A stretch of 32,339 bases of DNA, taken from the IMG/VR virus record IMGVR_UViG_3300027499_000021, positions 1-32,339 of that record. The stretch is one strand, 5' to 3'. This document shows positions 10,930 to 19,230 of the stretch, piece by piece. A model generated the notes under the pieces. It saw only the letters and a program-made list of their open reading frames with translations, did not search any database and had not been told where the DNA came from. This DNA comes from a virus. Positions within the stretch are counted from its first letter, which is position 1. Each line of letters begins with the position of its first letter. A program made the translations under genes and the position numbers.

Positions 10930-10976
10930 CCCAATTCCTAGGATTGATTCTAGGTACTGTCCTAGAATCTATTGGG
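10930..10976. promoter_or_regulatory. Operator-like repeat cluster
   Basis: Three copies of a nine-base half-site: CCTAGGATT at 10937-10945, its inverted form GATTCTAGG at 10946-10954, and CCTAGAATC at 10961-10969. The last two form a perfect 9-base inverted repeat with a six-base spacer. An outer inverted repeat CCCAAT/ATTGGG (10930-10935, 10971-10976) encloses all. It lies just downstream of the predicted start from the promoter at 11007-11034, so a bound protein could block late transcription. An RNA hairpin in the leader is the alternative. Confidence 0.6.
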
Positions 10977-11006
10977 CTACTTTCCCGGTGAGAGCCAACG
11001 GTTAAA

Positions 11007-11034
11007 AGTATATCACCATGAAATAGACTTGCAA
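11007..11034 (-). promoter_or_regulatory. Sigma70-like promoter of the packaging/head operon
   Basis: On the minus strand TTGCAA (11034-11029), a 16-base spacer and TATACT (11012-11007), with TGA before the -10 box, giving an extended -10. Transcription should start near 11000 and read through the repeat cluster into the small helical protein, SSB-like and terminase genes. The layout is the same as the promoter at 16492-16519. Confidence 0.6.
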
Positions 11035-11093
11035 GTAGGGTAGAAAAGGTTTAATCTGTTTTCACGGGGCCATTAACCCAGCCCTCGGGAATG

Positions 11094-11229
11094 TTGTGGG
11101 TGACAGACCCGGATAAACGTGGCTAATCAGGTGGTACTTCTTTCTCGACGCAGGTGGATGCCGGAACGCTAGAGAATCGGGGCCAGACGCTTGAACGTAA
11201 CAGTAGCCTAGATAAACGAGAACCCACAA
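11094..11229. ncRNA. Possible structured RNA closed by an 8-base stem
   Basis: TTGTGGGT at 11094-11101 is exactly complementary to ACCCACAA at 11222-11229, enclosing 120 bases. Inside is the word GATAAACG near both ends. A short hairpin (AAGCC, loop ATAA, GGCTT) follows at 11228-11241. No convincing promoter or T-run was seen, so the direction is open. It could be a small RNA, part of an origin, or chance. Confidence 0.25.
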
Positions 11230-11348
11230 GCCATAAGGCTTTCTACCTGTTTCTACACGGGTGAGGTGTTCTATCGTCAGATGGTTATACCGCTAGTAGG
11301 AAAATCTCAGCAAAAATTTGTGTGTAGCCCCCACGCAGTATGACGCAT

Positions 11349-11369
11349 GGGCGGGGGGCAAGGGGTGGG
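11349..11369 (+). other. G-quadruplex motif
   Basis: Four G-runs of 3, 6, 4 and 3 with loops C, CAA and T, a textbook four-run pattern with very short loops. A run of six C follows at 11372-11377, so a GC hairpin is an alternative fold. It lies 74 bases beyond the stop of the winged-helix gene. Confidence 0.6.
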
Positions 11370-11442
11370 TTCCCCCCGTGGCGACATATAAAGTACACCC
11401 CCCCACTCGCTAACGCTCGGTTGCCCTTGTATAGCACGGCCC

Positions 11443-14161: not shown

Positions 14162-14818
14162 TCAATCGTCCACCCCCTGATTCATTCGTTTGTAAGACAG
14201 CCACCAATACTCAGACATATCGCAATTTTGATATGCTCCAAAGCAAGGTGTGCCAATGGTGTAATGCACAATCTGGGCGTTGTCATTGCCCGGGTACTCC
14301 ATTGCCAGCCAGTTCCAAGTAAGCGGCAACTCGCCAATCTCAGACTCGTTAAGCCAGCCAAACCGATGCAGGAACGAACCCTCTACCGCATCAATGGTCT
14401 GCTTGTCCAAGCAGCGGTTAGCAATATGGGCGCAGTTCCAAAGAATCAGGCTTGACCAGTTTTTTCTGGGGTAATTCTCGTTCTTATTTCCAAGATACTT
14501 GCGGGGGTGCTTGGTCTGGTAGTCGTGTTGGACGACTTGGACTGCGTATCTATCGTCACGCATTTCCCAGAGTCGGGCAATATCTTCACGGCAGACCATG
14601 TCCCCGTCTGCGAAGATGGCCCAACCACGGTAGCCCATGAGATGCGGTACGAGAAACCTTGAATAGATGAAGTCATTTGACCCTCCTTTCCGTTCTACAT
14701 TATTGGCCACCAACGGGGTGAATCGCACCGGTTCGCTGCAATTGTCGATCACCGACTGGCAAAACGTATGGTAGGCCACCGCTTCCCGCTGGTCAAAGCC
14801 AACCACAATGTCAATCAT
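14162..14818 (-). CDS. Glycosyltransferase-like protein (GT8-like)
   Basis: 218 residues. The start MIDIVVGFDQREAVAYHTFC fits GT8-type proteins acting on nucleotide sugars. YSRFLVPHLMGYRGWAIFAD followed by GDMV places the metal-binding DxD at D71-D73. SSLILWNC near residue 122 and the Leu/Trp-rich acceptor side follow the family layout. A strong AAGGAG site 9 bases before the ATG is present. The ATG overlaps the previous stop (ATGA). Phages use such enzymes to change host surface sugars or DNA; the target here is unknown. It differs clearly from the glycosyltransferase at 1109-1750. Confidence 0.75.
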   Translation of the reverse strand: MIDIVVGFDQREAVAYHTFCQSVIDNCSEPVRFTPLVANNVERKGGSNDFIYSRFLVPHLMGYRGWAIFADGDMVCREDIARLWEMRDDRYAVQVVQHDYQTKHPRKYLGNKNENYPRKNWSSLILWNCAHIANRCLDKQTIDAVEGSFLHRFGWLNESEIGELPLTWNWLAMEYPGNDNAQIVHYTIGTPCFGAYQNCDMSEYWWLSYKRMNQGVDD

Positions 14819-15060
14819 GTGTTCTTCTCCTTTAGTTTGGCTTCTATGGCTTTACCAAATGACTTGATTCCAAAATTACTGCCATGCTGATAAAGAAACT
14901 TGTCTGCATAGTCATAGATTTCATCATCCGTCAGCCCAACCCATTCAGGCTGCGCTAGTCGGTCACGCAGGGCTTCTAAAAGGACACGAATGGCATTGTT
15001 GTTGACAGGAATAATCGCTCCCGGTCTAAGCCATTGTTCTATTAGTTCACGGTCTGTCAT
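14815..15060 (-). CDS. Conserved small phage protein (WVGLTDDE motif)
   Basis: 81 residues. It contains PEWVGLTDDEIYDYADKFLY, a segment widely seen in small phage proteins (WVGLTDEE...), and ends in a helix FGKAIEAKLKEKN. Function is unknown. A TAAGG site lies 7 bases before the ATG. It overlaps the preceding gene by 14 bases. Confidence 0.65.
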   Translation of the reverse strand: MTDRELIEQWLRPGAIIPVNNNAIRVLLEALRDRLAQPEWVGLTDDEIYDYADKFLYQHGSNFGIKSFGKAIEAKLKEKNT

Positions 15061-15854: not shown

Positions 15855-15964
15855 ACACCCCCCTTCGCCACTTGGCTGTGCTGACAATTGCTACACCACC
15901 GCTTGCCCGTTATCGACTCCACTACCTGAGTCATGCTCTTGAGATTTTTGTTCGTTATTGACAT
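15776..15964 (-). CDS. Small zinc-finger-like protein
   Basis: 62 residues. Cys pairs WCSNCQH (C24, C27) and WICQLCVTKK (C51, C54) enclose a Lys/Asn-rich loop, the four-Cys arrangement of phage zinc-ribbon proteins. It begins 74 bases inside the nuclease gene and ends 79 bases inside the next. Both overlaps are large, so one of the frames could be misjudged, but the paired cysteines in each frame favour both being real. Confidence 0.5.
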   Translation of the reverse strand: MSITNKNLKSMTQVVESITGKRWCSNCQHSQVAKGGVWKVTNNNQRQRWICQLCVTKKQGIV

Positions 15965-16280
15965 CTATTGATTCCCTAATTGCAAACACCAAAGTATCTA
16001 GCGGTACAACCGCACGCCAAGGTTGACCGTTCTGGCGGAATACCACAATAGGTACTTCCCCTAACCCGCAGGTTGCCTCTACCTGACGCACCCAGTCCAT
16101 CACCGATAGGCGCTCATGTCTCTTAACTTCAATCTTATACTTGCCTACCTGTATGTCATCCCCACCATCCCGGGCCTGCCCTAGCTTGCGCTTGACCACA
16201 AAGCCAAGCTGGTCAGTTAGTAGCTGGGCTAGTTCGTTCTCCCCACGGGCGCCCTTTTGACGCCTTCCACGGCCTTTCAC
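15891..16280 (-). CDS. PD-(D/E)XK nuclease, Holliday-junction-resolvase-like
   Basis: 129 residues. GARGENELAQLLTDQLGF provides E14 in the first helix; GGDDIQVGKYKIEVKRHE provides D41/D42 and the E51-x-K53 pair. Together these give the E...D...ExK active site of small PD-(D/E)XK enzymes, such as archaeal-type Holliday junction resolvases and related phage nucleases. It would act on branched DNA during recombination or before packaging. A GTG start overlaps the previous stop (GTGA). The C-terminal 25 residues, overlapping the next gene, are low-complexity. Confidence 0.7.
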   Translation of the reverse strand: MKGRGRRQKGARGENELAQLLTDQLGFVVKRKLGQARDGGDDIQVGKYKIEVKRHERLSVMDWVRQVEATCGLGEVPIVVFRQNGQPWRAVVPLDTLVFAIRESIDVNNEQKSQEHDSGSGVDNGQAVV

Positions 16281-16468
16281 TTCGGCCCCAGCAGTTTGTC
16301 CAGCCGGGTTGTAACATCCGAATAGCGGGGCTGTAAGAAGGCTATGATGGCCTCATCTACAAGGCTGGCCCGACTGCGGCGTTGGTCTTCGGCGGCCCGG
16401 TCTAGCAGCTCTCGGGTGTACGGTCGAAGCCGGACTATGAATGTGTTGTACTTTCGCAGCGGTTGCAT
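16277..16468 (-). CDS. Ribbon-helix-helix DNA-binding regulator
   Basis: 63 residues. KYNTFIVRLRPYTRELLDRA forms the ribbon and first helix; EDQRRSRASLVDEAIIAFL forms the second. This is the CopG/Arc/MetJ layout of a dimeric repressor. An AGGAG site 5 bases before the ATG and a strong promoter at 16492-16519 stand upstream. It is divergent from the recombinase gene, so it probably represses itself and that operon by binding the repeats between them. Such small proteins can also be plasmid copy or partition regulators. Confidence 0.75.
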   Translation of the reverse strand: MQPLRKYNTFIVRLRPYTRELLDRAAEDQRRSRASLVDEAIIAFLQPRYSDVTTRLDKLLGPK

Positions 16469-16491
16469 ACCATCTCCTATAAGGGTAATCC

Positions 16492-16519
16492 ATTATATCA
16501 TCGAGATTGCATTGAGCAA
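16492..16519 (-). promoter_or_regulatory. Strong promoter of the RHH regulator operon
   Basis: On the minus strand TTGCTC (16519-16514), 16-base spacer, perfect TATAAT (16497-16492) with TGA before it, giving an extended -10. It should drive the regulator and the long minus-strand gene chain that follows. Confidence 0.7.
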
Positions 16520-16547
16520 TACAGTTGTGGTACATTGAGCTCTCGAT
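16500..16547. promoter_or_regulatory. Repeat cluster, probable operator or recombination site
   Basis: A perfect inverted repeat ATCGAGA (16500-16506) and TCTCGAT (16541-16547) frames a direct repeat CATTGAGC (16510-16517, 16533-16540; 23 bases apart, about two helix turns). One copy covers the -35 box of the regulator promoter. The layout suits an RHH operator. A resolvase site next to its gene is the alternative. Confidence 0.55.
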
Positions 16548-16579
16548 AAATCTTAACTACCGTTTCAGGAGATTAAGTC

Positions 16580-17263: not shown

Positions 17264-17390
17264 CAACGTGGCTCAGCAGATGAGCCTGTTGACTGGTAAA
17301 CCGTACGTTCTAGTTGAGCGTACAGACGTTGTACGTACATTCAAACAACACGGATGGGTTCCACCATCACAGAAAGGGGAAAAGAAATGA
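17226..17390 (+). CDS. Small phage protein before exonuclease
   Basis: 54 residues: MTNLKLVKSKPPSNVAQQMS, then LLTGKPYVLVERTDVVRTFK and QHGWVPPSQKGEKK. The NxAxQMSLLTGKPY...GWxPPS pattern recurs in small proteins near phage recombination genes. Function is unknown. An AAAAAGGG site precedes the ATG, it overlaps the recombinase by 38 bases, and its stop overlaps the exonuclease start (ATGA). The double overlap supports a single operon. Confidence 0.65.
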   Translation: MTNLKLVKSKPPSNVAQQMSLLTGKPYVLVERTDVVRTFKQHGWVPPSQKGEKK

Positions 17391-18349
17391 AGGGATACGG
17401 GAAGGTAACGCCTGATACTATGCTGTCGTGCAGCAGACTGGCTGCCGTTGCGGGTAGGTCTAGGTATTCAACGCCAAACGACGAGCTACGCAAGACCATC
17501 GACGCCTTGCAGTTGGTAGAGCCGGAGCCATTTGAGTCCGAGGCTGCCGACTGGGGGAACCGGCTTGAGCAGATAGTGCTACGGGAAGCTGCGCTGCGGC
17601 TGGGCATAGAGAAGTTAAACCTAGACCACCCCAAGCCATACTTCCATTCCTCTTGGCAGCTATGCGGTAGCCTAGATGGTAACGCAATGGGTACGGGTCA
17701 CTTTATCAAGCATGACCCAGCCAACGGTATCTTTGTGGTGTCAGGCAAGGGGGAGATCAAGCTCGATGGCGTCGGGGTAATGGAAGCCAAGGTAGCTGGT
17801 TGTAGCCCAGAAGATACGCTGCCCCTGTATCGTGGGCCGTTACAGCTCCAAGGCCAGATGTCTATCCTTGATGCCAAGTGGGGGTGTGTAGCGGTACTCT
17901 ATCAAGGGATTGCCATGCGGCTATTCTTGTTTGAGCCGCACCAAGAAAGCCTACTGTTCATTGAGCATCTATGCCATGACTTCCAGCGTCGGGTTGACCA
18001 TTGGAAAAAGACCAACGAAATCCTTTGGTATGAGCCACAGCACACCGACGATGCAGCTAAGTGCTGGCCAGTAGCAGACGATGGGGATGAGCCAGTCGTG
18101 CTGCAAAACGAGGCGGTGACTTGGGCTGCCGAGGTTGTAGAAGCCAAAAAAATTATCAAGGAAAAAGAGGAAATCATTGAGAACCGTCAGACAAAACTGA
18201 TGGCTCTCATGCAGGGTAAATCAAAAGCCGTGGCTGGTTCGTATAAGGTGTCGTGGCCAATGCGCCACTACAAAGCCCAAGAGCAAAGGGTTATCCCGGC
18301 ACGTGATGCCTACTCTATCCGTCAATCTTCTGTCTCAGTAAAGGAATAA
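17387..18349 (+). CDS. YqaJ-type viral exonuclease (recombination)
   Basis: 320 residues from ATG 17387, with AAGGGG 8 bases upstream; an in-frame start at 17354 lacks this site. Active-site pattern of YqaJ/lambda-exonuclease enzymes: DWGNRLEQIVLREAAL (E61), CGSLDG (D97), GVMEAKV (E133, K135) and GPLQLQGQM (Q155). The C-terminus has a charged helix (VEAKKIIKEKEEIIENRQTK). These enzymes resect double-strand ends 5' to 3' to give single strands for the annealing protein encoded next. Confidence 0.88.
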   Translation: MKGYGKVTPDTMLSCSRLAAVAGRSRYSTPNDELRKTIDALQLVEPEPFESEAADWGNRLEQIVLREAALRLGIEKLNLDHPKPYFHSSWQLCGSLDGNAMGTGHFIKHDPANGIFVVSGKGEIKLDGVGVMEAKVAGCSPEDTLPLYRGPLQLQGQMSILDAKWGCVAVLYQGIAMRLFLFEPHQESLLFIEHLCHDFQRRVDHWKKTNEILWYEPQHTDDAAKCWPVADDGDEPVVLQNEAVTWAAEVVEAKKIIKEKEEIIENRQTKLMALMQGKSKAVAGSYKVSWPMRHYKAQEQRVIPARDAYSIRQSSVSVKE

Positions 18350-18351
18350 CT

Positions 18352-19230
18352 ATGAGCAACGTAACCGTACAGCCGCAGGTGCTAGACCCTGCTATCCAAG
18401 AATCAATCGTTCTCAAGGGCGACTTGTCTGGCTTGAGCCCCATGCAAAAGAAGGACTACTACCTGTATCGCTGCCAGCAGGTAGGGCTTGACCCGGCTGC
18501 CAAGCCATTCGACTTACTGACCCTGAATGGCAAGCAAGTCCTGTATGCCAACGCTAGTGCGACGCAGCAATTGTCTAGCGTGCATAAGCTATCAACGCAG
18601 ATAACCCACCGTGAGAATGTTGGCGACATCTACATTGTGTCTTGCAGGGTAACGGGTTCCGATGGCAGGGTGTCCGAGAACCAAGGCGCAGTCAACATTG
18701 GCGGGTTGAAGGGCGACCATCTGGCCAACGCCGTACTCAAGTGTACGACCAAGGCTATCCGCCGTTCGGTGCTGGCTCACGTCGGCTTGGGTATGCTAGA
18801 CGAGACAGAGGTTGAGACAATCTCCGAGGCACGCAAGGTCAACAACCCGCTAGATGAACTGCCAAAGCCACCCGGTGCGTTCGGCAGCGCAATCAGTAAC
18901 GTCGTGGCCAGCGCAGTCCAGCAAGCCAAGAAGGATGAGGTAGCCGAGGCAGTCGAGATACCAGTAGGAACTGTATATACACTAACCCTACCCAACGGAG
19001 AGGCGGCAGACCATCCTACCTACGACGCATGGGAGTCAGCCTACGTGGGAATGATTGAGAAGATTGCCAAGGCAGGCAAGGCGCCGGTTCAGAAACGACT
19101 GGATAGCATTGACCAACTAAAGCAATGCAACCTTGAGGTTATTGAACAGCTAACCTTAGAGATGAGAATGGTTCTCAATACCAAGGTAGCCAAGTGGTTA
19201 GCACCGCTGCGGGAATCAGCTCAGGTATAA
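18352..19230 (+). CDS. Probable single-strand annealing recombinase (RecT/Bet/Erf-like role)
   Basis: 292 residues starting 2 bases after the exonuclease stop. Conserved-looking segments: LVLKGDLSGLSP-like opening near 22, YLYRCQQVGLDPAAKPFDLL (residues 39-58), GLKGDHLANAVLKCTTKAIR (121-140) and RSVLAHVGLGMLDETE. The dense charged/helical core and pairing with a YqaJ exonuclease indicate the annealing partner of a phage recombination system. I recognise the protein as a common phage type but cannot say which annealing superfamily it joins. The last 15 bases overlap the lysozyme gene tail to tail. Confidence 0.7.
   Translation: MSNVTVQPQVLDPAIQESIVLKGDLSGLSPMQKKDYYLYRCQQVGLDPAAKPFDLLTLNGKQVLYANASATQQLSSVHKLSTQITHRENVGDIYIVSCRVTGSDGRVSENQGAVNIGGLKGDHLANAVLKCTTKAIRRSVLAHVGLGMLDETEVETISEARKVNNPLDELPKPPGAFGSAISNVVASAVQQAKKDEVAEAVEIPVGTVYTLTLPNGEAADHPTYDAWESAYVGMIEKIAKAGKAPVQKRLDSIDQLKQCNLEVIEQLTLEMRMVLNTKVAKWLAPLRESAQV

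Follow-up and report, generated by a model that had tools for sequence, protein, structure and literature searches.

A predicted ribbon-helix-helix operator in the divergent early control region of a MEP301-like podovirus

What purpose is served by the 111 bp (positions 16469-16579) that separate the divergent genes for a small ribbon-helix-helix (RHH) protein and a small serine recombinase in a 32.3-kb freshwater-type phage, the virus record IMGVR_UViG_3300027499_000021, whose whole 32,339 nt are the window analysed here? An initial annotation had rightly placed a control region in this gap, and had proposed that it serves at once as RHH operator and as recombination site, in a lysogeny switch without CI. 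The 111 bp are real control DNA, for which the best evidence is other than the repeats flagged at the outset. From a comparison with the control regions of about 80 related phages, we would put at roughly 0.78 the probability that the region serves a MEP301-like podovirus as its main divergent early promoter, autorepressed through an operator for the RHH protein encoded next to it.

Among cultured phages the nearest is Methylophilales phage MEP301 (MW452941), which was isolated on marine OM43 bacteria and whose portal protein is 75% identical to that encoded here. In MEP301, the RusA and RHH genes lie on one strand and the recombinase, YqaJ and ERF genes on the opposite strand, and this RusA-RHH/recombinase-recE block recurs in over 60 environmental records. 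Related structural genes and this same early-gene order make the present phage one of MEP301 type. Genomes of ~33.9-34.5 kb are found in relatives with terminal overlap; one 40.2-kb contig (G026, L280-L281) repeats its own start after ~34.5 kb, which indicates a genome of about that length and an over-long contig. All 19 records in which recE was found also hold the recombinase and RHH genes, and of the 69 non-redundant RHH loci whose upstream sequence is long enough, 68 have the recombinase gene divergent and within 1.5 kb, at distances from the RHH gene of 98-1145 bp. The two starts are 300-1100 bp apart in many relatives, with small genes between them in the cases inspected, and in MEP301 three small genes separate the control region from the recombinase. 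Elsewhere in the window, an 81-aa gene at 14815-15060 (gap 14820-15056) is missing in several otherwise collinear relatives.

The features of the locus are collected in Table 1. The leftward operon begins with the 63-aa RHH protein, which is conserved across the phage family and has no Pfam family at E<=0.001. Its AlphaFold model (pLDDT 83) has helices at residues 16-29 and 33-49, the N-terminal strand not being formed in the monomer, and its top PDB matches in Foldseek are mainly RHH proteins (PutA, P22 Arc, CopG, AmrZ), with weak E-values and probabilities up to 0.99; as modelled, the protein has the ribbon-helix-helix fold. The aligned RHH sequences of the family had diverged too far to be scanned with a degenerate query, so single RHH proteins were used instead. 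The RusA-like gene follows the RHH gene in the same order in most family records. In the rightward operon, family searches gave no match for the product of the third gene, whose place is occupied in MEP301 by an ERF protein.

Table 1. Genes and candidate regulatory features in and around the divergent gap (window coordinates).
Feature	Position	Strand	Remarks
PDDEXK/RusA-like gene behind the RHH gene	15891..16280	-	PF24608, phrog_244
RHH protein, 63 aa, proposed autorepressor	16277..16468	-	AlphaFold model, family conservation
Ribosome-binding site AGGAGA, RHH gene	16473..16478	-	
Extended -10 TGATATAAT, RHH promoter	16492..16500	-	unchanged in L002, L003, L007, L008
Candidate operator half-site 1, TATATC	16494..16499	.	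register of the 11-bp GATATC array
Candidate half-site 2, GATTGC	16505..16510	.	11 bp from half-site 1
Candidate half-site 3, GCAATA	16516..16521	.	11 bp from half-site 2
PWM array, 15-mers 16495-16509, 16506-16520, 16519-16533	16495..16533	.	10.2, 7.0, 9.3 bits
Putative -35 TTGCAT, recombinase promoter	16507..16512	+	18 bp upstream of TACATT
Direct repeat CATTGAGC, two copies	16510-16517, 16533-16540	+	not judged functional
Extended -10 TGGTACATT, recombinase promoter	16528..16536	+	weaker than TGATATAAT
Ribosome-binding site AGGAGA, recombinase	16567..16572	+	
Small serine recombinase, 227 aa	16580..17263	+	PF00239, E=8e-23
RecE/YqaJ-like exonuclease, rightward operon	17354..18349	+	PF09588, phrog_434
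Probable annealing protein	18352..19230	+	named by position only

Two extended -10 promoters stand back to back in the gap, and the candidate half-sites described below lie between them. The extended -10 that had been noticed on the minus strand (16500-16492) is real, TGNTATAAT turning up on either strand in 0.95% of shuffles of the 111-bp region, and there is a second, rightward one, in which the N position alone changes in two related phages (L007 and L008); both -10 boxes persist in these two. The putative -35 of the rightward promoter has its last base altered in the same pair, and the TTGCAT/TACATT combination occurs at 17 bp spacing in L201-L206 and L217. A consensus promoter scan returned nothing in the gap because it demands a better -35. 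The recombinase leader (16545-16579) is unchanged in near relatives. One further observation is that the leader TACCnTTnnAGGAGA precedes the start codons of both divergent genes (16472-16487 and 16558-16573), the two copies forming a 13/16 inverted repeat that is largely conserved in L092.

Within 16469-16579 alone, a 15-bp dyad is not significant (p ~0.84 in a single-region palindrome test), and a comparative approach was therefore taken. Dyads recur across the RHH-recombinase intervals of the family (ATATCGC-N-GCGATAT, ATATCACAGTGATAT and ATTGCACAGTGCAAT, in a side-by-side reading), usually in two places: near the RHH start, and where the rightward operon has its promoter or start, in the latter case mostly within the promoter spacer or immediately following the -10. 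A matrix-free weighted count gave 55.7 GATATC-like hexamers against 23.9 in shuffles, and 9.74 pairs of them exactly 11 bp apart against 0.09 (sd 0.23), with no other hexamer spacing comparable; as 11 bp is about one helical turn, this is the spacing to be expected for side-by-side RHH dimers. A palindromic position weight matrix (PWM), trained for each cluster on all other clusters, reached p_best<0.03 for 18 clusters out of 22, that of this genome included. The clusters share ancestry, and the test is not blind, because both hexamer and motif seed were chosen after viewing all clusters. One of the four clusters that fail has a diverged RHH protein and differently spaced GATATC sites. Scored with the PWM from which its own cluster was left out, the region itself gives p_best 0.027 and, for its two best sites, p_two 0.007. 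The register here, overlooked by the initial annotation, would be TATATC-N5-GATTGC-N5-GCAATA (16494-16521), with degenerate half-sites, and in near relatives none of the 18 half-site bases is changed as against 7 of the 15 spacer bases, a difference (p=0.0015) that is indicative because the bases tested were chosen after the alignment had been seen, the register having been fixed from the family motif. Family motif and half-site constraint together lend computational support to the proposal of an RHH operator, which is very probably correct.

To which of the two neighbouring proteins would such sites belong? Upstream of 89 relatives of the recombinase that lack an RHH gene, the best PWM scores average 4.5 bits, whereas the median for family control regions is near 13 bits, a contrast favoured by the make-up of the 89 controls, most of them from bacteria and probably of higher GC content, with lower scores as a consequence. 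Two phage controls without RHH score high (L271, 10.4 bits; L269, 8.6 bits). Conversely, L369 has RHH and recE genes but lacks a recombinase, both in the interval between these two and on the rest of its 9.4-kb contig, and near its RHH start it holds a weak, borderline site, GATTGC-N5-GATATA (p 0.03-0.06), which shares GATTGC with half-site 2 of the present array and has GATATA 11 bp away. A sub-lineage with a diverged RHH protein (strand FYFRL; L231, L241, L253, L257, L260, L265 and L267) arranges GATATC differently, with four sites at other spacings in L231 and L253, and provides a natural test of RHH-operator co-evolution. The background level in RHH-less controls, the site in L369 and the respacing in the FYFRL sub-lineage favour the RHH protein as the binder: the predicted operator appears to follow the RHH gene and to be largely absent upstream of recombinases without one.

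How such an operator might work is suggested by where its sites lie. RHH dimers would line up on one face of the DNA, one per half-site, and would cover the -10 of the RHH promoter together with the -35 and spacer of the recombinase promoter; it is from these positions that we infer repression rather than activation. The RHH protein would then repress both its own operon (RHH and RusA-like genes) and that of the recombinase, RecE and annealing protein. Early in infection, with the RHH protein not yet accumulated, both operons would fire, and later the recombination operon would be turned down by the RHH protein, the serine recombinase thus being a regulated product of the switch.

The initial annotation went further, and suggested that the region may be operator and recombination site (attP- or res-like) in one, with RHH binding gating the recombinase. 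Sites of the att and res kinds usually lie beside the recombinase gene, as does this gap, the sole sizeable non-coding DNA adjoining an apparently active recombinase, and RHH is paired with recombinase almost without exception. The recombinase belongs to the resolvase/invertase clan, with a PF00239 domain and its active-site residues present (Y7, R9, S11, D75, R76 and R79, without variation across 32 relatives). When modelled at full length it looks like a serine integrase in its catalytic and first DNA-binding domains, and the likeness is limited to these. It has no PF07508 match at E<=0.001 and, at 227 aa, is not a large serine integrase, a type characterised by PF07508 together with a zinc-ribbon domain and a coiled coil. 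MEP301 has been described as without an integrase, and its recombinase homologue as possibly not functional, PF07508 being absent (PMC8024684); conservation of the active site in relatives speaks against simple decay. Against a dual site, the motif goes with RHH and not with recombinases, many relatives have the long, gene-containing intervals described above, the aligned relatives run through the region without a breakpoint, and no partner site was found, nor was any res-like arrangement recognised by eye in 16469-16579. No long inverted repeats beyond chance were present in 12 genomes, a search in which poorly matching sites could be missed. The dual role is therefore unsupported, and we consider it unlikely. 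Unsupported, too, is the lysogeny switch, MEP301 having no described integrase and no related prophage having been found, in searches by recombinase and portal that cover part of the possible hosts: none of the 80 top-ranking bacterial relatives of the recombinase lies in a MEP301-type prophage, and no related portal gene of >30% identity occurs in 399 genomes of an order that includes Rhodoferax. A DNA invertase system was considered and rejected, since that search of the 12 genomes revealed no invertible segment enclosed by two inverted crossover sites.

It could also be argued that the repeats first flagged arose by chance in AT-rich promoter DNA and that 16469-16579 contains no specific operator. 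As regards the repeats themselves, we concur. The direct repeat with two-turn spacing is present, at 23 bp (~2.2 turns), but is weak, as a direct repeat of 8 nt turns up in 6.5% of shuffles; the inverted repeat ATCGAGA/TCTCGAT (16500/16541, 7 bp) is present too, but at chance level (30% of shuffles). Both decay in 87%-identical relatives, where the changes at 16512, 16514, 16538-16540 and 16502 in L007/L008 break them, and the dyad alone is, as noted, weak. For the region as a whole, chance is nevertheless quite unlikely, given that a motif derived from the other lineages scores significantly here and that substitutions avoid the half-sites.

Alternatively, the sites might belong to another regulator, of host or phage, while the RHH protein acts elsewhere, for instance as an orphan antitoxin or partition-like protein. 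RHH proteins do include antitoxins and ParB-like factors, and the weak profile matches of the one encoded here are antitoxins (TacA1, RelB-like). Neither a toxin-like neighbour nor a ParA gene was noted beside the RHH gene, however, and the sites cluster at this gene in many lineages, a diverged RHH protein going with a respaced GATATC array, so that we regard a foreign regulator as very unlikely. Highly improbable, finally, is that RHH protein and recombinase form one device, in which the array is operator and accessory site at once and its filling by RHH decides whether a minimal integrase-like serine recombinase, reduced to the catalytic and first DNA-binding domains, acts on this same DNA. 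Such a device would be a repressor-gated switch in phages regarded as strictly lytic, a notion that the pairing at 68 of 69 loci fits without proving.

The favoured reading, an autorepressed divergent promoter, predicts, for a widespread group of aquatic podoviruses, which protein represses, where it binds and which genes it controls, and yields a testable sequence rule, namely GATATC-like half-sites 11 bp apart. The near-constant pairing with an intact-looking recombinase, in phages not known to integrate, raises the question of what role that recombinase plays.

The RHH protein may have a second target. Nowhere in the window is there a better operator-like match than ATATCACCATGAAAT (11010-11024, 13.7 bits), which lies just upstream of a non-coding element at 11029-11292 (+), and operator-like matches are found in the same place in MEP301 (33367) and at the 3' end of the element in G081, G082 and L205. 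The element, which sits within non-coding DNA (10935-11442) between the SSB-position and replication-initiator genes, has conserved counterparts in roughly a dozen related phages, MEP301 among them (E down to 1e-73), and contains the GATAAACG motif twice; it has no Rfam family, and the copy in this genome folds no better than shuffles. In the L096 genome (G015), it is inverted relative to the recombinase. The surrounding non-coding DNA also holds a perfect 9-6-9 dyad, GATTCTAGG-TACTGT-CCTAGAATC (10947-10970), which was discarded as a recombination site, being limited to the close lineage and mismatched in L003.

Among known systems, Arc and Mnt of P22 (immI) are likewise small phage RHH repressors of divergent promoters, and Arc is among the top structural matches of the present protein. 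At its operator, Arc occupies two subsites with a spacing of about one turn. No sequence relation to either was detected in family searches, the operon regulated here would be recombinase-RecE, and, unlike in P22 immI, no lysogeny or antirepressor gene was found in this phage. A small serine recombinase is carried by pSM19035 too. In that plasmid the repeats of the RHH protein Omega overlap its own promoter as well as those of further genes (PMC9499535), but they are contiguous 7-bp repeats and Omega works with ParA, whereas here the half-sites are of 6 bp at a spacing of 11 bp, with no ParA seen. Dimers of RelB bind 6-bp repeats on one helix face as an autorepressor (PMC2812701), and the likeness to its operator relO lies in these 6-bp repeats on one face; RelB has a toxin partner, and none was seen here. 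No description of an RHH operator controlling a recombinase-RecE operon was found in the literature searched. MEP301 has the same divergent block, with operator-like sites before both operons, and most likely this group of phages possesses an autorepressor that works like Arc, Omega and RelB but recognises a half-site of its own.
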